A stretch of DNA of 40,371 nt from Planctomycetota bacterium (lineage in GTDB: Bacteria; Planctomycetota; Planctomycetia; Gemmatales; Gemmataceae), in assembly GCA_021809185.1 (NCBI GenBank), contig JAKBAI010000018.1, forward strand, positions 1 to 40,371, in the 5' to 3' direction. Below, piece by piece: positions 12,093 to 39,163 of this stretch. The notes under the pieces were generated by a model. That model made no database searches and was not told where the DNA came from. It saw only the letters and a list, made by a program, of their open reading frames with translations. The position numbers and the translations under genes were made by a program. The number at the start of each line of letters is the position of its first letter. Positions within the stretch are counted from its first letter, which is position 1.

Positions 12093-13223
12093 ATGATTAT
12101 TATTGATGGGAGTGTTGGTGAAGGGGGCGGGCAGATTTTGCGAACTGCTCTGACGTTATCCTTAATTACCCAGAAACCGTTTCAGCTCACTAAGATCCGA
12201 TATAACCGACCGAAGCCAGGGTTGCAGCCCGCCCACCTCATGGCAGTCCAAGCTGCTGCAAAGATTGCTTCGATCGATGAAAGAAAGGCGAAATTAGGGG
12301 CAACCGAATTGGAATTTTTCCCCCAATCGGTTCAACGGGGGAAGTATCATTTTCGGATTAACACCGCTGGTTCAACATCGCTTGTTTTGCAAACAATCTA
12401 TTTGCCCTTGCTCTTGAATTCCCCTAAGGATAGCAAACAAACTCAAATCCCAGAGAAGCAAGGAAATGAAAGGGAACCGCACCTCGGCGATTTTGAAGCG
12501 AATGAATTGACTTCCAGTGAGATTGTCATCGAGGGGGGAACGCATGTTCCTTTCAGTCCCGTCTTTGATTATTTGGCTACTACTTGGAACAGTTATCTAA
12601 TGAGGATGGGGATTTCGATCGATTTAGCGTTAGAGCGATACTGGTTTTACCCGCGTGGTAACGGCAAAATTAAAGCGATTATCCCTCCAGTTTCGAAAAT
12701 ACTGCCGATCTGGGATCATCACGATTCTGAGCAAGCAAAAGTAGTCTATTCTGCAAAATTAACTGCGCTGCATAATCACCGTTCGAAATCGGATGTTAAA
12801 AAAACAGTTGAATCTTGCCAACATGATTTGCATCAGCTGAGAATCCGTTCCAGTTTGGATATGGTTGAGATCGAGGATGGTCCAGTTCTTGTTTTAATGC
12901 TAGAACTGCGAAGAGTAGATGTAGAGCGATCGACCCCCATTTTATTTAGCAAAATCGCGGATAAGAACAAACCGTTGAATATTTTACCTGCTGCATTGAT
13001 AAAAGAGGTTCATGCTTTCGTGAACTCTGGAGCGGCGGTGGATGAACACTCGGCAGATCAGATCATTTTGCCGTTGATGTTTGCCTCTGGACCATCACGA
13101 TTCTTTGTTAGTAAAATTAGTCAACATCTTCTTACCAATATCGAAATCATTGGAAAATTTATAGATAGGAGAATTCAGGTTCAAGGAGAATTGGACCAGC
13201 AGGGGGAAATTCAAATCGAATAA
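12093..13223 (+). CDS. rtcA: RNA 3'-terminal phosphate cyclase
   Basis: RtcA uses ATP to convert an RNA 3'-phosphate to a 2',3'-cyclic phosphate through a covalent histidine-AMP intermediate. The 376-residue protein shows the family N-terminus IIDGSVGEGGGQILRTALTL, the RPGL-like segment NRPKPGLQPAHLM, and IEGGTHVPFSPVFDYL (146-161). The C-terminal motif DEHSADQIILPLMFA carries the expected nucleophile H319. A family-atypical insertion of about 30 charged residues (109-142) lengthens it relative to the usual 340 or so. The usual partner, RNA ligase RtcB, and the RtcR activator are not nearby, although a sigma-54 activator of another class lies 5 kb upstream. The ribosome site (GAGAAA) is weak. 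The next gene begins 155 bases downstream, so co-transcription with the radical SAM gene is possible. Confidence 0.94.
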   Translation: MIIIDGSVGEGGGQILRTALTLSLITQKPFQLTKIRYNRPKPGLQPAHLMAVQAAAKIASIDERKAKLGATELEFFPQSVQRGKYHFRINTAGSTSLVLQTIYLPLLLNSPKDSKQTQIPEKQGNEREPHLGDFEANELTSSEIVIEGGTHVPFSPVFDYLATTWNSYLMRMGISIDLALERYWFYPRGNGKIKAIIPPVSKILPIWDHHDSEQAKVVYSAKLTALHNHRSKSDVKKTVESCQHDLHQLRIRSSLDMVEIEDGPVLVLMLELRRVDVERSTPILFSKIADKNKPLNILPAALIKEVHAFVNSGAAVDEHSADQIILPLMFASGPSRFFVSKISQHLLTNIEIIGKFIDRRIQVQGELDQQGEIQIE

Positions 13224-13378
13224 TCGCGTGGTCGATCTGGGTATTTCCAAGCAATTTTATTCTTATTCCGATCTTATTCCGATGTTTGAACCTCTCTCCC
13301 CTTTTTAGGAAATATAATTCTGATAAAATAGAGTAAGCAAAGAATTCGGAATATGAGTCTGGACGTAAGAGTAAGTTG

Positions 13379-14035
13379 ATGCAAGACGATTTGGATAAGA
13401 TAACTACTCGGATTTCGCAAACGGTTTCTTGTACGGAAGCAGAGGGACCAGGAAATCGTTATGCGCTGTGGTTTCAGGGATGCCCGCTGCGCTGCCCGAG
13501 CTGTTGCAATCCCGAATACCTTTCCTTTCAAGGGGGAGTATTGCGCTCGGTCAGCGAGATTTTACAAGAAATTTTGGAGATAAATTCAGCGAATAAGTTA
13601 ACGGAAAAGTTAACTATTGAGGGCATTACTTTGTTGGGTGGGGAGCCGTTTGCTCACTCCCAATTTGCGGCTCATTTAGCTAGAGAGGTCCAACAGCATC
13701 AGTTGAGCGTTATGGTCTTTACTGGGTATACACGACAGCAGCTCGAGGAACAGAAAGATTTCTGGGTAGATCTCCTCCTAACCCATACCGATATCCTGGT
13801 CGATGGTCCTTATTTACGCGATTATCCAGATACCCAACGGCGATGGATCGGCTCAACCAATCAGCAGATCCATTTCTTGACTGATCGATATGCTCCCGAT
13901 GATCCTTGTTGGCAAAAGCGGAATACTTTGGAGATTCGTCTATCCGCAGAAGGTCAACTTGTCGTCAACGGTTTTCCTGATCCAAATTTAAGTTCACTTT
14001 GGCGCGGGAAATTCGAGGGGAAAATCAAAAAATAA
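13379..14035 (+). CDS. Radical SAM protein of the NrdG / pyruvate-formate-lyase activase type
   Basis: The 218-residue protein has the radical SAM cluster motif CX3CX2C as C35-P-L-R-C39-P-S-C42, the SAM-binding GGEP segment (87-90) and a C-terminal RRWIGSTNQQIHFL stretch resembling the tail of anaerobic ribonucleotide reductase activases. Length fits that group. Family members make a glycyl radical on a partner enzyme or, in related groups, modify peptides. No class III ribonucleotide reductase or glycyl-radical enzyme is next to it. Instead it heads the run of + strand genes around a soluble FtsH-like protease, so the partner may be in that cassette; that link is inference. A TTG at 13376 is also in frame, but ATG at 13379 is the more likely start. 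Confidence 0.87.
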   Translation: MQDDLDKITTRISQTVSCTEAEGPGNRYALWFQGCPLRCPSCCNPEYLSFQGGVLRSVSEILQEILEINSANKLTEKLTIEGITLLGGEPFAHSQFAAHLAREVQQHQLSVMVFTGYTRQQLEEQKDFWVDLLLTHTDILVDGPYLRDYPDTQRRWIGSTNQQIHFLTDRYAPDDPCWQKRNTLEIRLSAEGQLVVNGFPDPNLSSLWRGKFEGKIKK

Positions 14036-14058
14036 TAGTAGAACAAATATATTCTCCT

Positions 14059-14072
14059 GTAAATCGATTTAC
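14059..14072. promoter_or_regulatory. Perfect 14-bp palindrome
   Basis: GTAAATCGATTTAC is self-complementary with no spacer. It lies 24 bases after the radical SAM gene and 80 bases before the next start. It could be an operator, but a palindrome of this size in AT-rich DNA is weak evidence. Confidence 0.25.
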
Positions 14073-14151
14073 CAAAGCGCTTGCTAGCGAATTATGAGCG
14101 ACTTGCCAGCAATTGAACTAAAAGGTTATATCTTGAGGGAACGGGGCAGAG

Positions 14152-15246
14152 ATGATGAACGAAACCGATGATTCTTTGCAATTACCCATCGTATCCATTT
14201 TTGAAGCGAATCTTCTAAATCTAACACAGGGTTATCTAGGCAATCCCAAAGTCTTATTTGAGGAGATCAAGGAGATCATCAATAAGAAATGCCCTAGCCC
14301 TTCTTGTTTAACCGCAACAGCGGTTCAGCTTTTGCAAAATAGTCTACGAGTGGGGATTCTGCACCGTTTGATGATCAATGGCAACGGCTGGCAAGAGCAG
14401 CGATTCTTATCGAATGGGAAACCAAAAACAGGTCGCCTTTGGACCCGTCACGATCTGAAAACGGTACCGTTGCAATTCTCCAAAGCGGTGTTGGAGTTCT
14501 TGATCTGGAATGTCGCCTATGCGCCAAACGATATTGGGAATACCCTTAAAATAACTGCTGGGGAGCTTTTACCCGCGGATTGTCTCTTTTTTTATCTCGT
14601 TTATTCACGTTGTCGCACGGATCTGGAACTCCGGGGGCATTATCTAAAAAGTTCTTTGTTTCGAGATAATCCCATTATTCAATTAAATTTCCCTGCGGAT
14701 GTCAGTAATAGTAATAATAAAAATAACCTCGTGAAATTTTCGAAATGCCATGGGGATATCTGGATGTTGATCTGGGAAGGGCTGCAATCGGAATTGAAAA
14801 CGAATCGCTTAGCGATTGAAGAGAAAAAAGGGCAAATCGAGTCCTGGGATGAACAATTTAATAATGGCAGTTGGGATAGTCGAATCCTTACCAATTGGCT
14901 AAACGCCTTAAAAGATTGGAAACGCTTTGATTTGAGCCGGTTTCTTCTTCAAGTTTTAGAACAGTTATTGTGCCAACAAGATGTTGGACTCTCTTTTTGG
15001 ATCGGAAGTTTGAAGAGTAAAGAAGGGCCGCGAATGGATCGACGTTTGGAAACCCATCGAAAAGCATTAGCTTTGTTACAAACCGAATCGATTTTCGCGG
15101 ATTGGATTGATTGGGCAAGAAGTACCAATTTTTTAGACGATGATTATGATCTAGCTCGGTTTTGGCTTACCGAGTGGGAGCATTTTCAAGGCGACGAAAT
15201 TCTTCGAAAATGCCGCAGAATTCTCCATGAAGTTGAACCTGTCTAG
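14152..15246 (+). CDS. Unknown 364-residue protein of the FtsH-like cassette
   Basis: No catalytic motif, signal peptide or membrane segment can be recognised. The protein is mixed alpha-helical and rich in Trp and Leu (DIWMLIWEGLQSEL, WLNALKDWKRFDLSRFLLQ, FADWIDWARSTNF). A central low-complexity stretch, SNSNNKNN, is near residue 185. Two Met codons lie together at 14152 and 14155; GGGGCAGAG precedes them. It starts 116 bases after the radical SAM gene on the same strand. From memory it resembles one of the uncharacterised accessory families annotated as FtsH ternary system domains, but I cannot verify which. A role as an adaptor or structural subunit is only a guess. Confidence 0.75.
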   Translation: MMNETDDSLQLPIVSIFEANLLNLTQGYLGNPKVLFEEIKEIINKKCPSPSCLTATAVQLLQNSLRVGILHRLMINGNGWQEQRFLSNGKPKTGRLWTRHDLKTVPLQFSKAVLEFLIWNVAYAPNDIGNTLKITAGELLPADCLFFYLVYSRCRTDLELRGHYLKSSLFRDNPIIQLNFPADVSNSNNKNNLVKFSKCHGDIWMLIWEGLQSELKTNRLAIEEKKGQIESWDEQFNNGSWDSRILTNWLNALKDWKRFDLSRFLLQVLEQLLCQQDVGLSFWIGSLKSKEGPRMDRRLETHRKALALLQTESIFADWIDWARSTNFLDDDYDLARFWLTEWEHFQGDEILRKCRRILHEVEPV

Positions 15247-15791
15247 ATTTTGGTATCAATTGTTTAGTAATTATTTTCTCCCCTGAATTATAGCCAAGGC
15301 TTACAATGAATCCTATTCAACATGGAACTGGATTTCGAGGTTAGAGCTTCAAACTAAGGTTATATAAATGTTTATCCGCATTATTGGGTATCTCTTTTTC
15401 AAGAATTAGAGCACGAGTTAATCCTGAGCTATTTGGGAGCAAAATTAAAATTAATATGGAAGCTCTTAGAGATTCTACTAAAATATATATTAATTCCTTG
15501 ATCAATTTTCTTAGAGAGAGTGCTTAAAGATTAAGTTCTTAATGTTTGAATTTTACAGGCAATATAAGGCAAGATAAGGGAAGCTAAGACAGGGAAAGCT
15601 AAGACAGGGAAAGCTAAGACAGGAATATAATCGTTTACGTTGCTGAATTATTCTAATGAAAACACTTATGAAAACACTTTTGAAAAATCTGACTCTATAA
15701 TTTAGAGTTGAAACGATCAGGAAAAGTTGCAAACAAAAATTTCGGGAAGAATCGTTAATGAATCCTTACTGAATTTTTGAAGGAGTTGAGT
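15247..15791. other. Non-coding gap inside the FtsH-like cassette
   Basis: A 545-base AT-rich gap with a 15-bp tandem array (15577-15620) and a short ATGAAAACACTT-type repeat near 15656-15681. It separates the 364-residue protein from the coiled-coil protein and may contain a second promoter for the downstream genes. No promoter is convincingly visible. Confidence 0.5.
15577..15620. repeat. 15-bp tandem array (three copies)
   Basis: AGGGAAAGCTAAGAC occurs twice exactly (15591-15605, 15606-15620), preceded by a 14-base copy lacking one A (15577-15590). It lies about 170 bases before the coiled-coil protein gene. Confidence 0.9.
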
Positions 15792-16370
15792 ATGTCACGC
15801 GCATATCGCATTCAGATTACCGAATCATTGAACCAGACGGTTTCTAGTCAAGATTCCATCTGTACCGACTTAGAATTGTTGGGCATTCTGCCCCAGGAAG
15901 AGATGAGTGAGCTATTACGTTTAGAATTGGAAAAGCGTGGATTCGAGCAATCCAATGATTCTGGGAGTTTGGTTCGGAACAATAACGATGGCACGATTAT
16001 TGAAATCGATCCTTGTGAAGGGACCGTAACCATTCGTTCCGAATCATCAAAAGCGGTCTCTCTGGAAACTTCGAAGAGTCAGATAGGGTATGACGATCTT
16101 GGCCCTTTCAAGAAAGAAATTGAAGAAAAACTGCGTAAAGAAGCGCAAACAAAATTGAAAAATGAATTGAAAGAAGAAGAAAATCAGTTGCAGAAAGAGG
16201 CTACCGATCAGCTGGAGAAATCGCTGGGCGATCTTAAACAGGAACTGAATCAGATTGTGAATCGGGTTACAGCAGAAGCACTGAAGAAGAAAGCGGCGCA
16301 GCTCGGCAGTATTAAAGAGATGACCGAAGATCCTCAAGCGGGTACTTTGACAATTAAACTGGAACTCTAA
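15792..16370 (+). CDS. Coiled-coil accessory protein of the FtsH-like cassette
   Basis: The 192-residue protein begins MSRAYRIQITESLNQTV, continues with a small alpha/beta domain (about 1-95, including TIIEIDPCEGTVTIRSES) and then a long charged coiled coil (about 105-165, rich in KEIEEKLRKEAQTKLKNEL-type heptads). It ends in a strand-like tail, DPQAGTLTIKLEL. From memory, this N-terminus matches an accessory family found beside soluble FtsH-like proteases in Planctomycetota and named among the FtsH ternary system domains. ATG at 15792 is chosen because AGGAG lies 6 bases upstream; an in-frame TTG at 15777 has none. A perfect 11-bp hairpin covers the stop codon. It could be a substrate or oligomeric scaffold for the protease; nothing in the sequence decides this. 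Confidence 0.82.
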   Translation: MSRAYRIQITESLNQTVSSQDSICTDLELLGILPQEEMSELLRLELEKRGFEQSNDSGSLVRNNNDGTIIEIDPCEGTVTIRSESSKAVSLETSKSQIGYDDLGPFKKEIEEKLRKEAQTKLKNELKEEENQLQKEATDQLEKSLGDLKQELNQIVNRVTAEALKKKAAQLGSIKEMTEDPQAGTLTIKLEL

Positions 16371-16394
16371 GACAATCGAGCTAGATTGTCTTAG
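16367..16394 (+). other. Hairpin over the stop codon of the coiled-coil gene
   Basis: CTAAGACAATC (16367-16377) pairs perfectly with GATTGTCTTAG (16384-16394) around GAGCTA. The left arm contains the TAA stop codon. No T run follows, so it is more likely an RNA-stability or processing element, or a partial attenuator, than a full terminator before the protease gene. Confidence 0.55.
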
Positions 16395-16530
16395 CTGATG
16401 AAACGAATCAGGAATCCATATTTCTAGTTAAATATTCCCCTTGATAGCTGTTTGCCGAGAAGCTCTCTTATTTGATTTGAAGCAATTCAGTAAAGTAGGG
16501 GGCTTTTATGAAGTATTGGAAAAATGTTCA

Positions 16531-16586
16531 CAAAGCGAGAATAACAAAGCGAGAATAACAAAGCGAGAATAACAAAATGAGAATAT
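16531..16586. repeat. 14-bp tandem array before the protease gene
   Basis: CAAAGCGAGAATAA is repeated three times exactly from 16531 to 16572, then a degenerate copy (CAAAATGAGAATA) follows. The degenerate copy supplies the ATG of the short leader frame at 16577. Confidence 0.9.
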
Positions 16587-16645
16587 TAGTGATTACGGAA
16601 CGGGAAAGGGAGATTCTCGATCAGGCGAGAACGAAGCGGGCATGA
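16577..16645 (+). CDS. Possible 22-codon leader peptide overlapping the protease start
   Basis: ATG at 16577 opens a frame (MRILVITEREREILDQARTK, then RA) that ends at TGA 16643-16645. Its stop overlaps the protease start as ATGA, the classic arrangement for translational coupling. The protease ATG has only a poor ribosome site of its own, which makes coupling attractive. The leader's own start is in the last, degenerate copy of the 14-bp array, with GAGAA upstream. The peptide is highly charged. The frame may be chance; only the overlap and the weak downstream ribosome site argue for it. Confidence 0.4.
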   Translation: MRILVITEREREILDQARTKRA

Positions 16646-18795
16646 AGACTACGATTTCAGAGAAAGAACTACCAATCGATATTGCTTTGCGGGAAGCGAT
16701 CGAAATCGCCTACCCGAAAGAGTTGACAGAAGTAGTGAACAAACTTCGCCAGGGAATTCCTTGTCTAGTCGAATGTGAAAAATCGATGGCCGGCTATGCC
16801 TATATCAATTTCAGAAATCGCTTAAAAGCGGCGAAATTGGATTGTATTTACATCGATGGCCGGGCAAGGCAAAACGATCGGAACCCCCAAGATAAGAATG
16901 TCGCCCAAGATCCCCTTTCGGCGATGGGTGGGTTGATCGGAACTATGATCGGTCAAATTCGCGATGCGGTGCGCGGTGGGGCAACCGAACATCGAGTACT
17001 GGTTCTCCCCCACCTCGATTTACTTACCTCTTCTACAAGCGGATTAACAGGAGAATCTCGGGAAGTGATTGCACTTCTCTATGAAAATCCAGAACTGATC
17101 TGGCTTGGATTTAAAGATCCCTCTTTCCCTTTACCGGAAGTGATCGAAAATCTATTCGGTCACCGGGTCAAGATGCTGGGGATCCCCCGCGATCGTTTGC
17201 CATATTTAATTACACAAAAAGAGGCCAAGAAATTTGGTAAAACGTTCAACCCGTTTATCCTCTATAAATATATTTCGGGGGTGAATGCGGTACGGTTGCG
17301 CCGATTGCTTTCTACCTTGGAGGGGGAAGATTATCCGAGCGATTTGAAACATATTTACGCTCAAATTCGCCAGAGTACTCTCAATACTTCTCTGGATATT
17401 CCTGAAGTCGATCTCGATACCGATATCGGTGGTTATGAAAAAGTAAAGAAACAGTTACGCCAAGAAATTCTAGATATTTTAAGCAAACGGGATCAATGCA
17501 ATAATGAGGACCAGATTCGCCGATTCGAAGATCTGATCCCGCGCGGGATGATTTTTTGGGGACCACCCGGAACGGGTAAAACCTATTTTGCCAAAGCAAT
17601 GGCTACCGCGCTCGGGGCTGCGATTACTATTGTATCTGGACCAGAATTGAAAAGTAAATGGGTGGGGGAATCAGAAGAAAATCTCCGGCAAGTTTTCTAT
17701 CGTGCTCGGCAAGCAGCCCCTGCTATTATCGTCTTTGATGAGTTGGATTCGTTCGCAACTTCTCGCGGTACCTATCACGGTTCTGGGGTCGAACACTCCA
17801 TGGTCAATCAGCTTTTGACCGAAATGGACGGTTTTCATAAAGATGAATTAGTGTTCATTATTGGAACAACCAATTATGTAGAATCGTTAGATGCAGCGCT
17901 CCTGCGGCCAGGCCGATTCGAATTTCATATCGAAATCCCTTACCCCGATGAAAAAGATCGCCTGGAAATTTTGAAAATCTATAATGAAAAATTGAATCTG
18001 AAAATCCCTCCGAAAGTTCTCGATTATGCCGTAAAACGCACCGGAGATCCTGTCGATGATGGCAGTGGTGGCTTTTTCAGCGGTGATCATCTCTATGCCC
18101 TATGCCGATCGCTGGCCCGAATTCGATTGCGTTCGAATCGTAGTGACGAAACGACCATCGAAGATATTGAAAAAGCCTTTACCGAATACGATGAAAAATT
18201 GGTTCTGACTGGAAAAGAGGAACTACTGCTCTCGACCCACGAAGCAGGGCATTTTATCTGTGCGCTGCACTGCCCGTTGCATCCTCCCCCAGAACGAATT
18301 ACCATTCAGAGTGAACGATCTTGGGCTCCTGCTTATGTCCGCTTTCAACAAGATGAGAGCCGGCGCTTAGGAATGACTAAAAATCAGATGATGGACGATC
18401 TCTGTGTTCTTCTGGGTGGGATTGAAGCAGAACGACATTTTCTAAAAGATATTTCTACAGGTGCGGGCGGCAGCGATCTTTATAGAGCAACGGTTCTTGC
18501 CCATATGATTGTAGAAGTCTATGGCATGGATGACGTAATCGGTCTGCGCCAATTTCGTTCCCCGCGCGATGGAAAACGAATGGATGGGGTTTCCCCGCAG
18601 TGGCAAGAAAAACTAGATTCCAGTGTTTCTCAGTTGATTCGATCTAGCCAAGAACGAGCTGCGCAAATTCTCCAAAAACACGAATCTGAATTCCGTGCAC
18701 TGCGAGATCTTCTCATTAAAGAAAAAAATCTAGATATACAATCGATTAAAGATATGGGCATTATGCCGAAATCCAAGGGTAAAAATGATCAATGA
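16642..18795 (+). CDS. Soluble FtsH-like AAA+ / M41 zinc metalloprotease
   Basis: The 717-residue protein has no membrane segment, unlike housekeeping FtsH. Residues 20-200 look like a degenerate NTPase domain similar to the N-terminus of Ycf46-type ATPases. The AAA+ domain has Walker A GPPGTGKT (307-314), Walker B IIVFDELD (362-369) and arginine fingers in LRPGRF (R422, R425). The pore loop reads KWVGESEEN (339-347), as in Cdc48-type ATPases rather than the FtsH FVG. The M41 peptidase domain has the zinc motif HEAGH (533-537) and third ligand D612 in GAGGSDLYRAT. The enzyme should unfold and degrade cytosolic substrates. It is the centre of a cassette of small accessory proteins. The start overlaps a leader frame; its ribosome site is poor. 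Confidence 0.92.
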   Translation: MKTTISEKELPIDIALREAIEIAYPKELTEVVNKLRQGIPCLVECEKSMAGYAYINFRNRLKAAKLDCIYIDGRARQNDRNPQDKNVAQDPLSAMGGLIGTMIGQIRDAVRGGATEHRVLVLPHLDLLTSSTSGLTGESREVIALLYENPELIWLGFKDPSFPLPEVIENLFGHRVKMLGIPRDRLPYLITQKEAKKFGKTFNPFILYKYISGVNAVRLRRLLSTLEGEDYPSDLKHIYAQIRQSTLNTSLDIPEVDLDTDIGGYEKVKKQLRQEILDILSKRDQCNNEDQIRRFEDLIPRGMIFWGPPGTGKTYFAKAMATALGAAITIVSGPELKSKWVGESEENLRQVFYRARQAAPAIIVFDELDSFATSRGTYHGSGVEHSMVNQLLTEMDGFHKDELVFIIGTTNYVESLDAALLRPGRFEFHIEIPYPDEKDRLEILKIYNEKLNLKIPPKVLDYAVKRTGDPVDDGSGGFFSGDHLYALCRSLARIRLRSNRSDETTIEDIEKAFTEYDEKLVLTGKEELLLSTHEAGHFICALHCPLHPPPERITIQSERSWAPAYVRFQQDESRRLGMTKNQMMDDLCVLLGGIEAERHFLKDISTGAGGSDLYRATVLAHMIVEVYGMDDVIGLRQFRSPRDGKRMDGVSPQWQEKLDSSVSQLIRSSQERAAQILQKHESEFRALRDLLIKEKNLDIQSIKDMGIMPKSKGKNDQ

Positions 18796-18932
18796 ATCGA
18801 GTGTGGTAGATCTATAGTGTTAAACAAGATCTCGAAATCTATAAAGAATCGATTTTGTCTAATAGAATAAATAAAATTTCTCGAGGCTGAACTTATCCGT
18901 TTAGTATTGTTACAAGAGGAGCACAAAAATTC

Positions 18933-19181
18933 ATGGCCGAGCTGACCATTTCGCTCAGACCTGATCCAGAAACAGGAAAAAGCGATATCATCATCAAGCT
19001 AGAAGAAGATCAATCTTCTTTACCGCAAGAACACGAACAAGCGCACCGGGAAGCCGTCGAACGTTTGCTTGGTAAAAATAATATCGGTAAGGTGATTATC
19101 CAGCGCGAAAGCGAGGGGGAACCGATCTTTGTTCCGAAAGCAAATGAACCGACCGCGAAGCCTCTAGCGCAAAATAATTGA
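18933..19181 (+). CDS. 82-residue accessory protein of the FtsH-like cassette
   Basis: The protein begins MAELTISLRPDPETGKSDI, continues with an acidic segment, then EHEQAHREAVERLL and a short strand, KVIIQRE, and ends in a polar tail. It is a small alpha/beta protein with no catalytic motif. AGGAG lies about 13 bases upstream of the ATG. It follows the protease by 137 bases on the same strand. From memory, proteins with this opening (LxxRPDPxTGK) are conserved beside soluble FtsH-like proteases in Planctomycetota and are listed among FtsH ternary system domains. Its size suggests an adaptor, a tag or a protein modifier; the last idea is speculative, since it lacks a C-terminal Gly-Gly. Confidence 0.8.
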   Translation: MAELTISLRPDPETGKSDIIIKLEEDQSSLPQEHEQAHREAVERLLGKNNIGKVIIQRESEGEPIFVPKANEPTAKPLAQNN

Positions 19182-19560
19182 GGGATCAGGAAAGTCGAAT
19201 TCTCGAAGTTAACCTGATGAAAATATGATCCGTTATTGAAGTATCGAAAGAGGATGATTAAGCACGTAGTACCGAATTGAATGCGAAGAATCTGATGAGA
19301 ACGAATCTGCAAATCTTTCTTGTTCATACCGCCGATATTCGAAGATCGTACCAAGATTCATTCTGATATTTTAGATATGCTAGCAAGATATGCCAGCAAG
19401 AAGCATGCAATTTATTAGGGAGTCGATTTGATCTGGGGATGGGTCGAATAAGATTTACTGAATTGGCTTCGAATTCAATTTTAAATTCGCTGCAAAATAT
19501 TCTCCGAAAGCAGGGATAAGCCGAAGAAAAGTTCCCAAGGAACAAAGGTTATATATCGTA
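19182..19560. other. Non-coding gap before the 1240-residue gene
   Basis: A 379-base AT-rich gap on the transcribed strand of the cassette. No repeat array, terminator or extra gene was found. A weak AAAGG ribosome site lies near its end, about 12 bases before the next start. Confidence 0.5.
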
Positions 19561-22500
19561 ATGAGCACAGATGTGAGCACACTTGATTTCAAGGATCTCG
19601 ATCAGTTGAAATTCGCCCTTGCTTCAGGAACGATCCCTGAAAAAGTTCAGCAGCGATCCGCAGCGGTAACTTACTTCAAGTCGGGGCAGATCCGAGTCGA
19701 TTGTAACGAAAATTGGGACAAAAAAACGATTAAGTCTCTCGAATCGCTGGGGGTAACTTTTCGATACGACCAGAATAGCACGAATCTCGATGCCAAGCTA
19801 ACCGAAGGACAGCTAACCGAGGGGCAGAAAGATCGTGAAATCGATCGAATGACAACCGTAATTTGCTGGCCGCAAATCATCCCTCTGCTTCCTCATTCCT
19901 ATTCGAGTGAACCAGCAAATAATGAAGCAATCCTCTTTTATCTCGATGCAGAGGATTTATCTGAATTCGTTCGAGAGATATTGCGGTTGGGCAACGATCG
20001 GCAAAGTTATTACTTTTTATCCAATACCGATAAGCATGGAACAAAAGTCTTATTGAAAGTGATCTCACCCCCTTATTATAGCTTATTAAGAGCCATCGAT
20101 CAATTACCTTTTCCTTCGGGCGGAACGGTCACGGCATTTCGCGAACAGATCCCCCATTTATGGGTGCAATGGGGTTACCAATATCCCTACGGGGAATCGC
20201 TGGAGATAGCCAAAAACCAGATGATTCTGCTTTCCGCACCGAGCGCTTGGTATCCTGATTGGTATCCTATCGACAAGCCAGTTTTTGAAGATATTTATCA
20301 GATATTGGCATTGCACATTGCCGCACAGGAGACTCCTACTCATGTGCAGGATCCAGAAAAAATCGATGTGCCACTACGATTGATCGCGGCCAATGCCAAT
20401 GACCAAGCTCAAATGTGGCTTATTACTGGGGCAGAAGCAGAAACCACTTTTGATCATTTTGTTCGAGATTGCCAAGAACAGATTTTAGATAAATTTAACT
20501 TTGTGCTGTTCAAAAATAAGGAGAACATCAGCGAAATTTTACTGCTGTACCGGCAGTCCCAGGATCGGACTCCAGAACTAATCTTCCCCGATATGATCCC
20601 TTATCGAATCTATAGCAAAATTTCTAACCTATTTGTTCCCTGCAATCAGCGAATTCAACCACAACTTCGGCGCGATTTTCTGCGCTCCTTGCTAGTTCAA
20701 GATGAATCAAAAATCGTCTTTCTATTGCCGTTAGAAGATGGGAACTTTATACCGCGGTCGGTTTCAGAAAAAGCGTTCCGCCCACTACGCGATTGGATTC
20801 ATTATGTTGTTCAAAAAGATGCCGATTCCATAACCCCTTGGCTAAGCTCTTTCCAGTTTGAATTTGATGAATTCATTTGCAAAGACAAGTCCACGAAAGA
20901 GAATCGCACCGATAACCAAAAAAAATCGAAATCTGGGAATTCGAACCGGGAATCTTCTCGAGATAGCTCCGTGCTAAATGATCTCGATGATCTGGTTCCT
21001 GACCAAGATCCAAAAAAGACAAAGATTGCCGGGATTCGGAAAAAGAAACAATCGAATGAGAATTTTACTCCTCAAAAACATGAAATAAATGACGAGGCGA
21101 ACGCTCGTTTGCAATTAGATAAATTGGAGAGAGAGTTTATGGAGTTACCGGGCCAGCTCGATGCCCCCGGTCGCATAAATCTGTGGGAGCCGATTGGATC
21201 CCTTTATGCCGTTCTTAAAAATCGGGAAAGTGCCGCTATTTGCTTTATCAATGCTCTGTGGCATCACCGGGACATTCCGAAAGATTTACTGTTGCGCTGG
21301 TGCCGTTCGGAAAGCCCACAAGAAGGAGATAAAGAAGGAGATAAAGAGAGAGATAATATAACCGCAGCGGAAGTCGACGAGATCTTAAAAACCGATAATC
21401 CTACGACGAGGCAACTCCGGTGTCTCGTAATTTACGTTATGCTCTGTTATTTGGATAGAACGAGATATGCGGAGGTCCGCGAACGCTTAACTGCTCTCAT
21501 GGAGCAAATACAAAAGAATGAAAAACTTATTCCGATTCGAATTGTCTGGTTCTTTTGGTATTATCTAAGCAAGTTCAATAAAGACCCCCTGTTATTGGTG
21601 CGCAGTAGAGATCGGTTACTGTACCAATTGATGGAGGAGGGGTTGAATGTCAGTCTAGATCTACCGATCTTTTTACGCTTTAATTTTAATGACAATACCC
21701 GTTCCCAAAGTCGTCTCTCTAGTCTGTTCGAGTATCTGCGGACTACCGAAGTCGAAGTGATTCAATGGATTACTCAGAAAGAGAAATCTCTTGATCCTGA
21801 TCGATTTCTGTCTCATCATATCGATATTGGTTTGGCCAAATTGACGTTCGCTTATGCTTTTGCCAAACTTCAAGATCATCATACCGCCAAAGCGCATCTC
21901 AGCGAAATCACAAAACTCTGGTTCGACTCGAACCAGGTGAACGAGATCGATTCCAAAGAAGTAACCGATTTCAAAGAGTTTGTCTTTCAACTTTACCAGA
22001 ATCGGATTGAGAAAACGCTTAAAAATGAGTCGGGTAACTCCCCAATCGACCAGACCGTTTTAGAGTTAGAGACGTTGCTCTCAGATAATGTCAAATATAG
22101 CTGTAATCGCTTGCGCGCGATTTCGCTGATTATCGAACCGATGGATCGCTTCGATCCATACCGATCGATCCGTAGCGGGACGGAATCGAAAATTTTACCC
22201 CTTCTTTCCAAGATTACCGAGTTACCTAATTTGAAGGGGGAATCTTTATACAATCAGATCATTCATTTGAAGAAAAAGATCGATCAAGAAAGTAATATAT
22301 TCCAGGAATCGTGGTTTCTTAGTTACGCATTACCCCTCTCCGTTCGGTTGAGCGACTTGGAGGTCAAAGGCAAGAATAAGGTACTAGAGGGAAAGCTTAC
22401 GTATTTGTTACTGGATCAATCAATCAATCTCATTACGAAACTAAACTACTATGTAGATCCTTCGACAATCGACTCGATTGCTTTATTGATCGATCGCAGT

Positions 22501-23283
22501 ATTCTAGTTGCTGGTCATCTGAATCGTTCGGATTTGATCGAAAAAATGATCCACATTTTATTTAACATGCTGGAAAAATTTCCAATAGCGAAAGCGATTC
22601 AACTCATCAATCAAATGGCGTCCACTTGTGTTCGTATCTTACAAAAATTCGGCATGATCGATCTATTGGATACGATTTTAACTTATTTCCACGATATTTT
22701 ATTCGACAGAAAACCATCGAGTCCATCGATTACCCCTGCGAATCGCGAAGAGAGGAGAGAAAAAGCCAAAAGAGATAAGGAAAACCTGGAAAGTAACAGC
22801 GATCGTTTGCTAGAAGTTTTGCGAAAAAAACATGCTCTGATCTGGTACGATTTTGTAACCGCTCTTCTTCATCTTGCGAGTGGTTGGTCCTATCTGGGCC
22901 AAGCAAACAAAGCCGATCCGTATATCGAAGAAGCGACGAAACTGATTTTTGATACTGATAGTTTAAGGAAATCAAATAAGTATCCGGAATACACCAAACT
23001 ATGCTGTGTTTATCTCCAGGCTTTAACTAAAAGCGGTAAGCAAAGCCATCAAGAGATGATCAAATCGGTATTTGCTCATTTACCAAACCTCTATCGACCG
23101 TTTACCGAGAGCCGATTTTATGGTCGAAATTATGTCATGGTGATCGAAGCTGCTATTCTCTCGCTTGTTTCCGATGAGAGTGTTCAGGGGGTTGCAACTC
23201 TACGCTGGCGCGATGAAGATGAATTCCTATACCGCAAACGATTGCACTACGATGTTCAGCTCGCAGTTGAATCGGCGGAGTAA
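19561..23283 (+). CDS. 1240-residue large protein of the FtsH-like cassette
   Basis: No named catalytic motif is seen. Residues 1-440 form a probably globular region with conserved-looking segments such as IPHLWVQWGYQYPYGESL, CNQRIQPQLRRDFLRSLL and EKAFRPLRDWIHYVV. Residues 440-515 are a charged, low-complexity linker. Residues 515-1240 are alpha-helical with the rhythm of tetratricopeptide-like repeats. It contains two slippage-type duplications in coding sequence: LTEGQLTEGQ (80-89) and a Glu-Gly-Asp-Lys repeat near 590. No signal peptide or membrane segment is present, so it is cytosolic like the protease. From memory, the N-terminal region matches a large accessory family of FtsH ternary systems. 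A sensor or substrate-recruiting scaffold would fit the helical repeats but is inference. Confidence 0.82.
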   Translation: MSTDVSTLDFKDLDQLKFALASGTIPEKVQQRSAAVTYFKSGQIRVDCNENWDKKTIKSLESLGVTFRYDQNSTNLDAKLTEGQLTEGQKDREIDRMTTVICWPQIIPLLPHSYSSEPANNEAILFYLDAEDLSEFVREILRLGNDRQSYYFLSNTDKHGTKVLLKVISPPYYSLLRAIDQLPFPSGGTVTAFREQIPHLWVQWGYQYPYGESLEIAKNQMILLSAPSAWYPDWYPIDKPVFEDIYQILALHIAAQETPTHVQDPEKIDVPLRLIAANANDQAQMWLITGAEAETTFDHFVRDCQEQILDKFNFVLFKNKENISEILLLYRQSQDRTPELIFPDMIPYRIYSKISNLFVPCNQRIQPQLRRDFLRSLLVQDESKIVFLLPLEDGNFIPRSVSEKAFRPLRDWIHYVVQKDADSITPWLSSFQFEFDEFICKDKSTKENRTDNQKKSKSGNSNRESSRDSSVLNDLDDLVPDQDPKKTKIAGIRKKKQSNENFTPQKHEINDEANARLQLDKLEREFMELPGQLDAPGRINLWEPIGSLYAVLKNRESAAICFINALWHHRDIPKDLLLRWCRSESPQEGDKEGDKERDNITAAEVDEILKTDNPTTRQLRCLVIYVMLCYLDRTRYAEVRERLTALMEQIQKNEKLIPIRIVWFFWYYLSKFNKDPLLLVRSRDRLLYQLMEEGLNVSLDLPIFLRFNFNDNTRSQSRLSSLFEYLRTTEVEVIQWITQKEKSLDPDRFLSHHIDIGLAKLTFAYAFAKLQDHHTAKAHLSEITKLWFDSNQVNEIDSKEVTDFKEFVFQLYQNRIEKTLKNESGNSPIDQTVLELETLLSDNVKYSCNRLRAISLIIEPMDRFDPYRSIRSGTESKILPLLSKITELPNLKGESLYNQIIHLKKKIDQESNIFQESWFLSYALPLSVRLSDLEVKGKNKVLEGKLTYLLLDQSINLITKLNYYVDPSTIDSIALLIDRSILVAGHLNRSDLIEKMIHILFNMLEKFPIAKAIQLINQMASTCVRILQKFGMIDLLDTILTYFHDILFDRKPSSPSITPANREERREKAKRDKENLESNSDRLLEVLRKKHALIWYDFVTALLHLASGWSYLGQANKADPYIEEATKLIFDTDSLRKSNKYPEYTKLCCVYLQALTKSGKQSHQEMIKSVFAHLPNLYRPFTESRFYGRNYVMVIEAAILSLVSDESVQGVATLRWRDEDEFLYRKRLHYDVQLAVESAE

Positions 23284-23454: not shown

Positions 23455-23472
23455 GGGGGCGCTTACGCCCCC
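23455..23472 (-). terminator. Terminator of the pyruvate dehydrogenase gene cluster
   Basis: GGGGGCG (23455-23461) and CGCCCCC (23466-23472) form a perfect GC-rich 7-bp stem with loop CTTA. On the minus strand the stem is followed by TATTTTAATTTC, the proper order for a rho-independent terminator 30 bases after the lpd stop. It may also stop readthrough from the 1240-residue gene on the + strand. Confidence 0.85.
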
Positions 23473-33083: not shown

Positions 33084-33941
33084 ATGGCTAATCCACATGC
33101 GAAGACGCTGCAAATCTTCCTGCCTACGGGTGAGCCTAGGGGAATCCGGATCGCTGAACTGACGACGCGCATCGTCCAGGCAGTGCTAATTCCACGCAGC
33201 GACCTTTCTACTGCGAAGACTCGCCCTGAACTCGATCACCTCTCGGTTTACTTCTTATTCGGAGACTCCGAAGAAGCTGCCAAACCCATTGTCTATGTCG
33301 GCCAAACCGAAGATGTACGAAAGAGAATCGATTCTCACAATAGCAACAAGGATTTCTGGCAGACTGCCATTCTGGTGATTTCCAAGACGAATAGCTTCAC
33401 GCAAGCGCACATTCGATACCTGGAATGGTATGGCATCAAGAAGGCCCAGGAAATCGGTCGGTACACTCTCAACAACGAACAGATTCCGTCTAAGCCATTC
33501 GTGCCAGAGCCGATGGAAGCCGATCTCCTCGATGCCTTCGACACACTCACAACACTCCTGGCAACGCTAGGCTACCCGGTATTCGAGCCGATCTTTAAGA
33601 ACAACGCTGCCGAGCAGTTTTTCCTAAAGGGCAAAGATACCGAAGCGGTTGGTGAGCTAGTCGAGGATGGTTTCGTCGTCCGAGCGGGAGCCATCGCCCG
33701 GATAGAGGTTGTTCCTTCGGCTCTTGACAAAGTTCCAGCAATCCGGAAAAAGTTATCGGACAGTGGCATTCTCGTAATGGAAGATGGTCAGCTGCGGTTC
33801 ACTCAGGATTATCTCTTCAACACTCCGAGCGGTGCCGCAACTACCATCTTAGGTCGGTCCTCAAACGGCTGGGTCGACTGGAAGAACAAGGACGGAAAGA
33901 CACTCGACGAGGTCAAGCGTGCCCAAGATATAGGGGAATAA
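33084..33941 (+). CDS. GIY-YIG nuclease with C-terminal DUF4357-like domain
   Basis: The 285-residue protein has a central GIY-YIG fold: SVYFLFG (54-60) in the GIY position, YVG (71-73) in the YIG position, catalytic-type R79 in QTEDVRKRI, and E114 in RYLEWYGI as the metal ligand. The C-terminus (about 245-281, GRSSNGWVDWKNKDGKTLDE) matches the DUF4357 module that often follows such nucleases. It should cut DNA, but the target is unknown; proteins of this design occur near restriction systems. The ribosome site is poor, and the start lies directly after a 24-bp repeat. A small frameshifted gene begins 6 bases after its stop and is probably in the same transcript. Confidence 0.87.
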   Translation: MANPHAKTLQIFLPTGEPRGIRIAELTTRIVQAVLIPRSDLSTAKTRPELDHLSVYFLFGDSEEAAKPIVYVGQTEDVRKRIDSHNSNKDFWQTAILVISKTNSFTQAHIRYLEWYGIKKAQEIGRYTLNNEQIPSKPFVPEPMEADLLDAFDTLTTLLATLGYPVFEPIFKNNAAEQFFLKGKDTEAVGELVEDGFVVRAGAIARIEVVPSALDKVPAIRKKLSDSGILVMEDGQLRFTQDYLFNTPSGAATTILGRSSNGWVDWKNKDGKTLDEVKRAQDIGE

Positions 33942-34489: not shown

Positions 34490-37400
34490 ATGGTAATCAA
34501 CTGGGCAAACCTCCGCGTGAGGGTCGATTCAATGCAAGACGCGTTCGAGGAGCTCTGTTGCCAGCTCGCTGCCGGTGAATCGCCAGCTGAGGGGGCACGG
34601 TTCATCCGAAAAGGCACGCCCGATGCTGGTGTAGAGTGTTTCTGGATATTACCCAACGGCGATGAGCACGCTTGGCAGGCGAAGTACTTCCTGTCCACTC
34701 CGAACGCACACCAATGGAAACAGGTCGATGATTCGGTTAAAACTGCTCTGAAGCAACACCCACGAATAACGAAGTACATTATCTGCATGCCGTTCGATCG
34801 ACCCGACGCCAGAGTGACCGGGCACAAGTCATCCTTAGACAGATGGGACGAGCGAGTGGCGAAGTGGAAGAAGTTGGCTAGGGCTAAGGACAAAAATCGA
34901 TCGGTCGAGTTCGAATTCTGGGGCAACCACGAATTGACCAAGCTACTAAGCCTCAAGAAGAACCGTGGGCGATTCTGGTTCTGGTTTGAGAGCGAGGAGT
35001 TTACCCAAGAGTGGTTTTCTAACAAGCTTGAGGAGTCGATTGCGAACGCTGGGGATCGCTACACTCCGGAATTGAACGTTGAATTACCTATCTCGAAATC
35101 ATTCGAGGCCTTGGGCCGCACGCCGGAATTTCACAAACGGGTGGGAGATCTGTATCAATCGATGCGAGAGGAAGTCAGCAGGCTCTCTCGCGAAGCCATC
35201 CGCAACGAGATCACTACCATTAAAAAATCCCTGCAAGAGCTGCCAGATATTGTCTTCGATAAAATCTCTGCAAAGATCGATCACATTCAAAACGAAATGC
35301 GAGGGAGTGTAGAAGTTGTATTCAATCTCCTCGATAACGTTCTGCTACCACTCGATGTCGATACGTACACATCCGTTCGACCGATCCCCTGGAACCAACT
35401 CGAAGACCTGTTGCAGAAGATTCTCAAGCAGATCAATAACTTGAGAGACACTGTGCAGCGGATGGCCAGCGAGCATAGTTTGGCCAAGCAACAGAAAAGC
35501 GGTGAGCTAGACGAATACCACCGAATGATCCTCTTACCCTTTATGAATCGCATCGACTATGCCGAGCGCGCCTCCTCGGATCTTCTCAAGTTCTGCAGCG
35601 TCGAAGAAGCGATGCTCGCTAATCAACCCGGGTTGTTGCTTGTTGGCGAAGCTGGACAGGGTAAGACACATCTACTGTGTGACGTTGCCTCCCGCGATTT
35701 GAAGGCAGGTTGGCCCAGACTGTTGTTTCACGGCTCACATTTCAGGGATGCCGACCCGTTTTCGCAGATCATTTCGCTTCTTGGGTTGAACTGTACAACA
35801 GCCGAGTTTCTGGGTGCTCTCGAAGCCGCTGGCCAAGACTACAATTCCCGCGTCCTGATCTTGATCGATGCCCTCAACGAGGGCGAAGGTCGAAGCTTGT
35901 GGGAAAAGCATCTCGCGGGCATGCTCCCTCAAATATACCAACACCCATGGCTTGGGATCGCATTGAGCGTCCGCGACTACTATTACGAAAATATGGTAAT
36001 CCCGAAAAAACTCGTGTCCGAGCAGCGTTTGACTCGGGTGATCCACAATGGGTTCCAAGAGCAAGAGCACAAAGCGGTCCAACGGTTCTTCTCTTACTTT
36101 AAAATCCAAGCCACTGGCCCGCTTCTCGTCCCTGAGTTCTCAAACCCTCTGTATCTGATGCTATACTGCAAGACAGTGAACCCGAAGCGGAAGGAGTTCA
36201 CTCAGATGCCGCCTGGCATCCGGGGCATCACCGCGTTGCTAAACGCATTCCTCGATGCCGTTAACGATCGGCTTTCGGAAAAGGGCTTCGACCCAAAAGA
36301 TAACTTGGGCCATAAAGCTGCGGATGAGATCGCGGCCCTTATAGCCGAATCAGGGAACTACAATCTGCCAAGGGCGCAGGTTAAGACTAAACTGAACCAA
36401 CTGTGCCCGACCCCACCCAACGAGTACCCTCGCAGCTTGTTATGCAAACTCGTTGCCGAGGATTTATTCTCCGAAAGCCGCTTGCCCATCGGCAGCGAAG
36501 TCCAGGAAGTCGTTCACTTCACTTACGAGCGGTTTGCCGATCATCTACTTGCGACGCACTATCTGGATAAGAATAAAGACTCCCTCAAAAAGGCATTCGG
36601 ACCTCGGACCTCGCTAGGGAAGATGCTTCGCGGGAAAGCGGAATCGTCGGAGTACGCTGGCCTGAAAGAAGCCCTCTCAATTCAACTTCCCGAACGGTTC
36701 AAACTGGAGTTGGTCGACCTAGTTCCCGAACTGAAGCAGCAAGAGTCGACTCAGTTGGCGTTCCTTCGTAGCTTGGTTTGGAGAGACGCGAGTTCCTTTC
36801 CTAAGGCAATGTTCGAGTACCTTGACTCGCTCAGAAAGTTCCCTCACCTCCAAGCTGAGGTTCTCAATTCACTACTGGCCGTTGCTCCTATACCGAACCA
36901 CCCGCTCAACGCGGACTATCTGCACGAACATCTGCTTAAAAGCCCAATGCCCGAGCGGGATTCGTGGTGGTCGGTTTTTATCTCAAGGGATGGGGAGAAG
37001 AACCGTGCAGTGAATCGTCTGATAGACTGGGCCTGGGAGGACACGGACAAGTCCGCTGTCAGCGAAGAGGTGGTCCTCCTAACAGGTATCCCTCTCACGT
37101 GGTTTCTGTCCTCGATGAGCCCCATCGTGCGGGACCGAGCAACGAAAGCCCTTGTTCGTCTGTTCGACAATCGGCTACTGGTGCTCACCAAACTCATTCA
37201 CCGTTTTCGGGAAGTAAACGATCCATACGTAAGTGAACGACTTGTCGCGGTTGCCTACGGGTGTGCGTTGCGTGCTAGCAAGATCGCCGGTTTGAAGGAG
37301 TTGGCCGAAATGGTGGCTGATGTGGTGTTCGGCAAAAACGGCTTCCAGCCGAACCTGCTCACCCGTGATTACGGCCGGGGCGTGATCGACGTCGCTCGCC

Positions 37401-39163
37401 ACTGCAAGGCAGTATTACCTAACGCACATCCGAAAGCCTACCCGCCGTATGGCAGTAAGTGCCCGGAGCTGCGAATATCTTCGACCAAGAAGAACCAGAA
37501 AAAAGGGAAGCATCGAGTGGTAGACCCAGAGAAGGAGCAGTCAAGAAAGATAATCCATTTGTTGGCCACTGACCGACACTATTCCAAGTTCGGCAAAAGA
37601 TACGTAATAGGCCACTATCCCTTCAACGAATGGACAAAAGTTCATGTTAAAAAAAGTACACCTAAAACTTCAAATGCTCCGTATGAGGAGTTCCTGAGCC
37701 ACCTCTCGCAACGGCAGAGGAAGTTATTCGACATCTATATAGATGCGTTCCAGGAAGCAGAAGACATCCGTCAGCTATCGCTCGAAGAGAGAGCAGCCCA
37801 AGGGCAAGACTGCACAGACCAGCAAATTGAAGAGATGGTGCATACAGCGGAAGCTGATTTCCTGCAGAGCTTGCACGGGAAGGAAAACTTGCTCAAAAAG
37901 TTCCAGGAGTTCATCAAGCCCTATGTGGAGCATCCAATGAGGTATAAAGAGGGCACTCCGATCGACATTGATGAGGCCACACGATGGCTGGTCCAACGGG
38001 TGCTGGAATTCGGCTGGACTCATGAGCGATTTGGCTGGTTCGACGATGACATTATTGGGATTGACCCCACTCACGACCTGATAGGGCCATCAAAACCGTC
38101 ATTTTCAGACCCGACCGGGGAAAAGTATCTGTGGATTGCCTATCGAGAGCTGTTGGCCAGGCTCGCCGACAACTACCACGTTAGAAAAAGGCATGGCACC
38201 AAACAGGAACTGCTGGTGGTTTGCCGTGGATTTTGGGATCTTGAGTCCGGTAGTCGCGATGACGTTGACCCATCGGTTGTCATCCGGAGTACTAAGAACG
38301 AGAATTCTGCAGATGGTCACAGTCTCTGCTGGTGGTCTCCGGTTGCAGTTACCGACTGGCAGAGGGAGTTAGATGATGCTACCTGGATCGAGTCGAAAGA
38401 TGATCTGCCATGTCCGAAGGCGATGCTTTCCGTCTCTCGCCAGGATCGCTCGGACAGTTGGTACGTCCTCGATACTGATGTCGTCTGGATGCAACCATCC
38501 AGCCTTGGGTGCAAAAACTACGATTTGCCCCGACGCAGACTTTGGTACCAACTCCGAAGTTATCTGGTGAAGAAGAACCAAGCTGATTCTTTCTTCCGAG
38601 GGGCCAAGCGTCAGCTCTTAAAAAACTCCTGGATGCCCAACCCTTTTGTAGTACGGGACGTGGCCCATGGCGAATTCTACTGGTCACCCGAGTACAAGGC
38701 GTGGAAGTCTAAAGAGGGGACTGAGTGGCAGGAGGTCGGTCTCAAAGATATGTCGTATGAGGTTTTATTGACGGCCATTGCATACAGCCAAGAATCCCAA
38801 GGGGCCGATCGCTCTCTTGACGACAGTTTACTATTTAGCATCCCAACCCAAGAGTTGGTGGAAGGGATGGCTCTGCGGTGGAGCGGTGTCGAAGGCACAT
38901 TCATCGACCAACAAGGCAAGTTAGCTGCCTTCGACCCGTCGATTGATGAGAGCGGCCCCTCGGCACTCTTGGTGCGTGCAGACCTGTTGAAAAAGTACTT
39001 GAACGACAACGGGCTTGAGCTGTTTTGGATGCTGAGGGGGGAGAAGAATCTCCCCGGAGGTCGGAGCCGTTCAGCTGCTCCAGGACGCCTTGAGATCGAA
39101 GGGGTATATCGCCTTACTCCCAAAGGAATTGTCGGTAGTCGAATTGCTGAGTATCGAAAGTAA
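34490..39163 (+). CDS. Avs-like defence protein: PD-(D/E)XK nuclease fused to STAND/NACHT NTPase
   Basis: The 1557-residue protein begins with a restriction-endonuclease-like domain (about 1-170): FEELCCQLA (19-27), GTPDAGVEC with D45 and E49, and WQAKYF with Q63 and K65 form a PD-(D/E)XK site. A helical region leads to a STAND/NACHT NTPase with Walker A GEAGQGKTH (386-394) and Walker B LILIDALNEG (456-465, D460), then SVRD (R495). The remaining thousand residues are helical-repeat-like, with a C-terminal part of no recognised fold. Nuclease, STAND NTPase and long sensor is the design of Avs proteins, which detect phage proteins and then cut DNA. I infer that role. AGGGA precedes the ATG. It is the last gene of the GC-rich island. 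Confidence 0.85.
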   Translation: MVINWANLRVRVDSMQDAFEELCCQLAAGESPAEGARFIRKGTPDAGVECFWILPNGDEHAWQAKYFLSTPNAHQWKQVDDSVKTALKQHPRITKYIICMPFDRPDARVTGHKSSLDRWDERVAKWKKLARAKDKNRSVEFEFWGNHELTKLLSLKKNRGRFWFWFESEEFTQEWFSNKLEESIANAGDRYTPELNVELPISKSFEALGRTPEFHKRVGDLYQSMREEVSRLSREAIRNEITTIKKSLQELPDIVFDKISAKIDHIQNEMRGSVEVVFNLLDNVLLPLDVDTYTSVRPIPWNQLEDLLQKILKQINNLRDTVQRMASEHSLAKQQKSGELDEYHRMILLPFMNRIDYAERASSDLLKFCSVEEAMLANQPGLLLVGEAGQGKTHLLCDVASRDLKAGWPRLLFHGSHFRDADPFSQIISLLGLNCTTAEFLGALEAAGQDYNSRVLILIDALNEGEGRSLWEKHLAGMLPQIYQHPWLGIALSVRDYYYENMVIPKKLVSEQRLTRVIHNGFQEQEHKAVQRFFSYFKIQATGPLLVPEFSNPLYLMLYCKTVNPKRKEFTQMPPGIRGITALLNAFLDAVNDRLSEKGFDPKDNLGHKAADEIAALIAESGNYNLPRAQVKTKLNQLCPTPPNEYPRSLLCKLVAEDLFSESRLPIGSEVQEVVHFTYERFADHLLATHYLDKNKDSLKKAFGPRTSLGKMLRGKAESSEYAGLKEALSIQLPERFKLELVDLVPELKQQESTQLAFLRSLVWRDASSFPKAMFEYLDSLRKFPHLQAEVLNSLLAVAPIPNHPLNADYLHEHLLKSPMPERDSWWSVFISRDGEKNRAVNRLIDWAWEDTDKSAVSEEVVLLTGIPLTWFLSSMSPIVRDRATKALVRLFDNRLLVLTKLIHRFREVNDPYVSERLVAVAYGCALRASKIAGLKELAEMVADVVFGKNGFQPNLLTRDYGRGVIDVARHCKAVLPNAHPKAYPPYGSKCPELRISSTKKNQKKGKHRVVDPEKEQSRKIIHLLATDRHYSKFGKRYVIGHYPFNEWTKVHVKKSTPKTSNAPYEEFLSHLSQRQRKLFDIYIDAFQEAEDIRQLSLEERAAQGQDCTDQQIEEMVHTAEADFLQSLHGKENLLKKFQEFIKPYVEHPMRYKEGTPIDIDEATRWLVQRVLEFGWTHERFGWFDDDIIGIDPTHDLIGPSKPSFSDPTGEKYLWIAYRELLARLADNYHVRKRHGTKQELLVVCRGFWDLESGSRDDVDPSVVIRSTKNENSADGHSLCWWSPVAVTDWQRELDDATWIESKDDLPCPKAMLSVSRQDRSDSWYVLDTDVVWMQPSSLGCKNYDLPRRRLWYQLRSYLVKKNQADSFFRGAKRQLLKNSWMPNPFVVRDVAHGEFYWSPEYKAWKSKEGTEWQEVGLKDMSYEVLLTAIAYSQESQGADRSLDDSLLFSIPTQELVEGMALRWSGVEGTFIDQQGKLAAFDPSIDESGPSALLVRADLLKKYLNDNGLELFWMLRGEKNLPGGRSRSAAPGRLEIEGVYRLTPKGIVGSRIAEYRK

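Follow-up and report, generated by a model that had tools for sequence, protein, structure and literature searches.

The window analysed here is the whole 40,371-nt stretch of contig JAKBAI010000018.1 from a Planctomycetota bacterium (Gemmataceae). ORF calling identified six consecutive plus-strand ORFs at 13376–23283, in agreement with the first-pass annotation, which had described six plus-strand genes in a row; the start it gave to the radical SAM gene, 13379, coincides with an ATG. The extent it assigned to the cassette, 13379–23283, holds for these six genes but misses rtcA (12093–13223), the upstream member of the conserved neighbourhood. The features are as follows:

12093–13223, plus strand: rtcA, RNA 3'-terminal phosphate cyclase, 376 aa (PF01137, E 8.8e-64), first gene of the conserved Gemmataceae neighbourhood
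13125–13127, plus strand: nucleophile His345 of RtcA (alignment with E. coli RtcA His309)
13379–14035, plus strand (ORF from 13376; ATG at 13379): radical SAM protein, NrdG/activase type (Fer4_12, 8.1e-30; Radical_SAM, 2.8e-7), syntenic in relatives
from 13481, plus strand: CPLRCPSC cluster motif of the radical SAM protein
14152–15246, plus strand: fvmX6 protein, 364 aa (PF20004, 1.2e-64; 14-member family alignment)
15792–16370, plus strand: fvmX5 protein, within a 197-aa ORF (15777–16370) whose conserved start, MSRAYRI, falls at ATG 15792 (PF20003, 7.4e-60; alignment)
16642–18795, plus strand: soluble double-AAA FtsH-type metalloprotease, 717 aa (AAA, 4.4e-42; Peptidase_M41, 2.3e-28; motifs)
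16642–17397, plus strand: inactive N-terminal AAA domain of FtsH, residues 1–252 (AlphaFold2 model, PDB matches; conserved in 16 relatives)
17560–17583, plus strand: Walker A motif GPPGTGKT of the second (active) AAA domain (motif)
18238–18252, plus strand: HEAGH zinc site of the M41 domain (motif; HExGH in 90 of 91 relatives)
18933–19181, plus strand: fvmX3-analog protein, 82 aa (PF20002, 2.3e-21; conserved small gene in 17 loci)
19561–23283, plus strand: fvmX7 protein, 1240 aa, with the fvmX7 domain (residues 6–417) and a predicted helical-repeat C-terminal part (PF20005, 2.4e-57; model of the L060 homologue)
23455–23472, either strand: bidirectional terminator-like hairpin with 7 G-C pairs (consensus match only), separating the cassette from the convergent lipoamide dehydrogenase gene

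The transcription unit likely starts with rtcA, one gene before the radical SAM gene. No hairpin of similar strength to the one at 23455–23472 was found in the intergenic gaps of the cassette. Gene junctions across the family are short or overlapping as in operons, the medians lying between about 2 and 60 bp; those in the window are long (116 to 530 bp), and because gaps reach 530 bp a single transcript is not certain here. Further along the window, some 11 kb after the cassette, a 1557-residue protein (34490–39163, plus strand) matches the PADLOC Avs2 model at 1418.7 bits and is preceded by a GIY-YIG/DUF4357 protein (33084–33941, plus strand) with a PDC-S14 match of 1.1e-106. The G+C content of the Avs2 region is 0.51 versus 0.43, and judged by these matches the two genes likely form an anti-phage locus.

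The central gene of the cassette encodes an AAA+/M41 protease with GPPGTGKT at residues 307–314, DE at 366–367 and HEAGH at 533–537. The second AAA domain retains intact Walker motifs and the arginine finger, and its pore motif, KWVGE, is p97-like. In the M41 domain, HEAGH is accompanied by an invariant aspartate; D612 is the likely third zinc ligand. The only one of the 91 family members that departs from HExGH is a truncated gene. No membrane span was found, the best 19-residue Kyte-Doolittle mean being 1.29, compared with 2.74 in the membrane FtsH of the same genome, which bears out the earlier description of a membrane-free protease with an intact zinc site.

The first 252 residues of this protein contain no Walker motifs and carry ECEKSMA and VLPHLDLL at the expected A and B sites. 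An AlphaFold2 model of this domain reached a mean pLDDT of 87, and all 50 of the 50 PDB matches listed for it are AAA+ proteins (best E 9.9e-5, Rix7). Comparison of the two AAA domains by sequence profile was colinear at the Walker B position and not significant; the N-terminal domain is therefore assigned as AAA because its structure model matches AAA+ proteins. A dead and an active AAA domain in tandem is the defining trait of the FtsH-ternary protease family, and according to the model this trait is present here.

Two better-known protein types resemble the cassette protease. Housekeeping membrane FtsH has the AAA and M41 domains with HEAGH in common with it; unlike that enzyme, the cassette protein is soluble, carries the extra dead AAA domain, and has a second AAA domain closest in sequence to p97/VCP. 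Its identification as a housekeeping membrane FtsH was rejected on a score of 259.6 bits against an equivalog cut-off of 600 bits and on the lack of a hydrophobic span, and the same genome encodes two ordinary FtsH genes separately. Cdc48/p97 (VCP) shares the double AAA architecture and the KWVGESE pore motif and, among solved structures, supplies the best matches to the AAA region. In contrast to p97, the cassette protein has a dead first AAA domain and a fused M41 domain, and a p97 N domain was not found in it.

Pfam assigns four of the five non-FtsH proteins to the families fvmX6, fvmX5, fvmX3-analog and fvmX7 (E 1e-21 to 1e-64), far above the curated cut-offs. These families were built to cover the FtsH ternary systems that Kaur et al. 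described in 2020 (PMC7159879), and the HMM comparison of all five proteins that the first-pass annotation had proposed is thereby answered for four of them. Its placement of the small proteins in FtsH-ternary accessory families also stands, with fvmX5 at 7.4e-60 and the fvmX3-analog at 2.3e-21. Its description of two large proteins without known folds has to be replaced: X6 matches fvmX6, and X7 consists of an initial fvmX7 domain and a predicted alpha-solenoid. In a model of the L060 homologue of X7 (pLDDT 82), the N-terminal part is alpha/beta and gives way to helical repeats over about 670 residues, a shape that would suit a scaffold or an arm that binds clients. A recognisable known fold for X7 was rejected, as Foldseek returned no PDB hit at E <= 0.001 and only weak helical-repeat matches. 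Relatives of X7 were absent from the PLSDB plasmids. In a 392-genome sample of the phylum, the fvmX6 cut-off was passed by the genome itself and one weak hit only.

The middle part of the fvmX5 protein is a coiled coil. A derivation of X5, FtsH and X3a from the Ycf46-DUF1257-DUF2997 module was considered and rejected, and is retained as no more than a lead: X5 against DUF1257 gave an hhalign probability of 2% (P 0.024) and no Pfam DUF1257 hit at E up to 10; profile comparison of the FtsH N-terminal domain with the Ycf46-like N-terminal domain was likewise not significant. Planctomycete DUF1257 genes (L067, L069, L070, L200, L202, L204, L205) adjoin genes for Ycf46-like ATPases in which the first of the two AAA domains is degenerate. 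This layout appears parallel to X5-FtsH-X3a, with homology unsupported by profile comparison.

The remaining protein is the radical SAM enzyme. Its best NCBIfam match is NrdG (E 9.9e-26), the activase of anaerobic ribonucleotide reductase, and the gene might be read as an ordinary nrdG that lies here by accident. This is very improbable: the match scores 90.5 bits against a curated cut-off of 126.1, an NrdD partner was not found in the genome (an assembly with about 5% unassembled), and the gene accompanies the cassette in both Planctomycetota and Myxococcota. A role as activase of a glycyl-radical partner within the cassette was also rejected, the RVxGY motif not being conserved in the partner proteins. 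With NrdG rejected and the glycyl-radical motif not conserved, modification of a protein or peptide, the role suggested by Kaur et al. (PMC7159879), is the most likely activity of the enzyme. The one small, conserved protein that could be the modified peptide or effector is the X3-analog.

Neighbourhood conservation was assessed by scanning about 85,000 species genomes with the N-terminal part of FtsH, which gave 118 relatives, and by examining the best 80 (L091–L170). Apart from two or three doubtful labels, these best 80 of 118 are labelled as Planctomycetota and Myxococcota; Zavarzinella formosa and a Gemmata sp. are among the relatives. The order rSAM-X6-X5-FtsH-X3a-X7 recurs in both phyla, so the conservation looked for by the first-pass annotation across Planctomycetota extends further than this phylum, and because it is conserved in relatives the order is far beyond chance. 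In Myxococcota, all eight genes of rSAM-X6-X5-FtsH-X3a-X7-MoxR-ivWA occur in one row, with both MoxR and ivWA inside the fetched stretch at 13 of 26 loci. Where enough sequence was available, MoxR came next after X7 at 11 of 13 myxobacterial loci, compared with 7 of 15 in Planctomycetota. MoxR, vWA and FtsH also share one neighbourhood in the genome G437 (L041).

Several variants of this arrangement were observed. Many Gemmataceae cassettes carry a second, diverged tandem X7 (L042, L043, L046, L048, L059, L061, L091–L093, L097, L101, L102, L106), and the window contains the first type only. At L098, L107, L131, L133, L137 and L138, FtsH is found with X5/X6 or alone, with no recognised X7 downstream, and at L134 X7 lies on the opposite strand. 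Planctomycete loci without a downstream X7 are possibly further variants with other partners. Two loci have unexpected taxonomic labels: L106 (JAIXLE010000185.1, labelled Bacteroidales) holds a Gemmataceae-type cassette and L151 (BNCN01000003.1, labelled Comamonas) a myxobacterial-type one. In both cases a wrong label or contamination of the assembly is likelier than transfer.

No MoxR or vWA protein is encoded within the 40,371-nt window, as the first-pass annotation had correctly stated; both genes are present at unlinked loci of the same genome. The ivWA protein, a divergent vWA with a helical N-terminal part, lies on contig C54 (L071:3570-5195; PF19997, 4.8e-44; PF19996, 4.8e-10), and its aligned vWA region has no MIDAS motif. 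The cognate MoxR (G000:C314:30063-31049) matches cassette-linked MoxR proteins at E 3.2e-181. FtsH, MoxR and ivWA are thus on three separate contigs.

Among 59 genomes of relatives, X7 occurs in 27, ivWA in 28 (the 27 with X7, plus G416) and the cognate MoxR in 26. The contig of G416 stops after rtcA-rSAM-X6-X5-ftsH, and because it ends past ftsH, X7 may simply be unassembled in this genome. Joint presence is strong across the 59 genomes for X7 and ivWA (27 shared, Fisher P 6e-16) and for X7 and MoxR (P 3e-13), and within the 37 family genomes (3e-8 and 2e-6, respectively), all four values being uncorrected for shared ancestry. The cassette itself is present in 26 of the 37 family genomes (27 counting the truncated cassette of G416) and absent in 10, among them several nearly complete genomes. 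In pairwise distance, FtsH is correlated with MoxR (r 0.88, P 4e-4, 12 genomes) and with ivWA (r 0.81, P 5e-4, 9 genomes), most of these pairs being unlinked. X7, ivWA and MoxR are retained or lost jointly and constitute a dispersed ternary system.

By family membership, these features confirm that the cassette belongs to the simpler subtype of the FtsH ternary systems (Kaur, Burroughs, Iyer, Aravind 2020, eLife 9:e52696; PMC7159879). The window provides the double FtsH-type AAA protein with an inactive first and an active second domain, the accessory proteins fvmX5, X6, X7 and X3-analog, and the radical SAM protein; the divergent vWA with a helical N-terminal part and the cognate MoxR are supplied elsewhere in the genome. 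Unlike the published systems, the core is spread here over three loci instead of one neighbourhood, RtcA leads the neighbourhood, and the window contains no peptide-processing peptidase. Membership is retained despite the split loci because co-location is how the group was found and not a feature of the machine. RavA-ViaA and other MoxR-vWA chaperone pairs have in common with it a MoxR ATPase and a vWA protein as a likely remodelling step; unlike them, the vWA protein here lacks a MIDAS in its aligned region and is coupled to a protease cassette. Literature searches found no experimental work on FtsH ternary systems, which are known from comparative genomics.

A further feature of the Gemmataceae loci is rtcA, whose product carries the nucleophilic histidine expected from the E. 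coli enzyme. The gene lies directly upstream of the cassette on the same strand at 28 fetched loci, corresponding to about 25 genomes (the two collections share at least three contigs), with mostly operon-like spacing of -77 to +152 bp. It precedes the radical SAM gene at 17 of 26 planctomycete loci with enough upstream sequence, versus 0 of 19 myxobacterial ones. RtcA-linked and MoxR-linked cassettes are not mutually exclusive subtypes, as L136 carries both. Upstream of rtcA, eight loci have a porphobilinogen synthase gene (ALAD, 3.7e-145; e.g. L106:1854-2888). The Rtc RNA repair operon (rtcBA with RtcR) likewise encodes RtcA with the conserved histidine; unlike in that operon, RtcB and RtcR are not beside rtcA here, where the neighbours are FtsH ternary genes, and RtcB is found on contig C214. 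Kaur et al. 2020 (PMC7159879) do not name RtcA anywhere in their text; with that paper as the basis of comparison, priority is not certain.

A functional link between RtcA and the cassette is only suggested, because RtcA does not follow the system from genome to genome: its association with X7 was not significant (P 0.07 overall; 0.71 inside the family). We give even odds to the alternative that RtcA is a neighbour fixed early in Gemmataceae and functionally unlinked. Besides the missing association, myxobacterial cassettes have no RtcA, and in 9 of 18 X7-positive genomes of the family and relatives with RtcA the two genes are apart or their linkage is not demonstrated. Against mere inheritance of gene order, the linkage is kept in about 25 genomes with mostly short or overlapping spacing, although the genes beyond rtcA are mostly unshared among loci. 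In G421 (L073, G421:C210), moreover, RtcA adjoins the unlinked cognate MoxR as a divergent neighbour instead. Published studies of E. coli and Salmonella connect RtcA and RtcB with damage to RNA, with damaged tRNAs and with antibiotics that target the ribosome, which makes RNA damage a candidate trigger. A Gemmataceae machine that responds to RNA damage, in which RtcA would act on or report broken RNA ends and the complex would degrade damaged or invader-bound protein partners, is a speculative reading that we consider rather unlikely.

We propose, with a probability of roughly 0.6, that the cassette is the protease module of a simpler-subtype FtsH ternary system in dispersed form, carrying out MoxR/vWA-coupled, regulated ATP-dependent proteolysis. 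The double-AAA FtsH would form a soluble hexamer in which the dead first AAA ring serves as a docking platform, the second ring, with its KWVGE pore motif, unfolds the client, and the M41 chamber cleaves it. Selection of clients or control of the ring may fall to X3a, X5, X6 and X7, with the helical repeats of X7 acting as its arm. In a second step, also driven by ATP, the client complex would be remodelled or delivered by MoxR and the vWA protein that lacks a MIDAS, both produced from the two other loci. The radical SAM enzyme could modify a component or a client, and in Gemmataceae, where RtcA is encoded alongside, RtcA may link the module to the damage or repair of RNA ends.

Two readings of the biological role of such a module deserve weight. 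The first is stress or protein quality control, in which the soluble protease would dismantle a cytosolic complex and not act on invaders, with MoxR-vWA as a disassembly chaperone in a RavA-ViaA-like logic. This is quite plausible, at somewhat short of even odds: gene content is constant, the protease co-diverges with the unlinked core, and the linkage to RtcA, an RNA-upkeep enzyme, is in keeping with it. The distribution is patchy, however, with the system missing from those 10 family genomes, and on this account it is not essential housekeeping. The second reading, a possible one that we hold a little more tentatively, is an inducible anti-invader conflict system that stays off until an invader is sensed and whose effector is the protease complex with a modified peptide. 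Kaur et al. proposed a conflict role for all MoxR-vWA ternary systems (PMC7159879), and the window itself holds the strong Avs2 gene. Yet the cassette has no variable effector gene, its content is constant across genera, its core genes co-diverge, its frequency in the family resembles that of a stable chromosomal trait, and no PADLOC defence model names its proteins. Given constant content and no variable effector, stress or quality control fits at least as well as conflict. That the cassette is a decaying remnant after loss of its MoxR-vWA core, as the window without these genes and some long gaps might suggest, is highly improbable, since every ORF is full length with intact motifs and both core genes are intact elsewhere in the genome.

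The protease module of a dispersed FtsH ternary system, as proposed here, is accessible to study because the constant gene set also occurs in growable species such as Zavarzinella formosa and Myxococcus xanthus. Joint presence and absence indicates that MoxR, vWA and FtsH form one set, also where their genes lie apart. A dispersed core with joint retention and the linkage of RtcA in the planctomycete neighbourhood are new here, with the reservation on priority given above. RtcA offers a lead to a specific trigger, broken RNA; if this is true, the signal that these protease complexes answer can be tested directly. Should the RNA-damage reading hold, RNA end repair and regulated proteolysis would be parts of one pathway in Gemmataceae.
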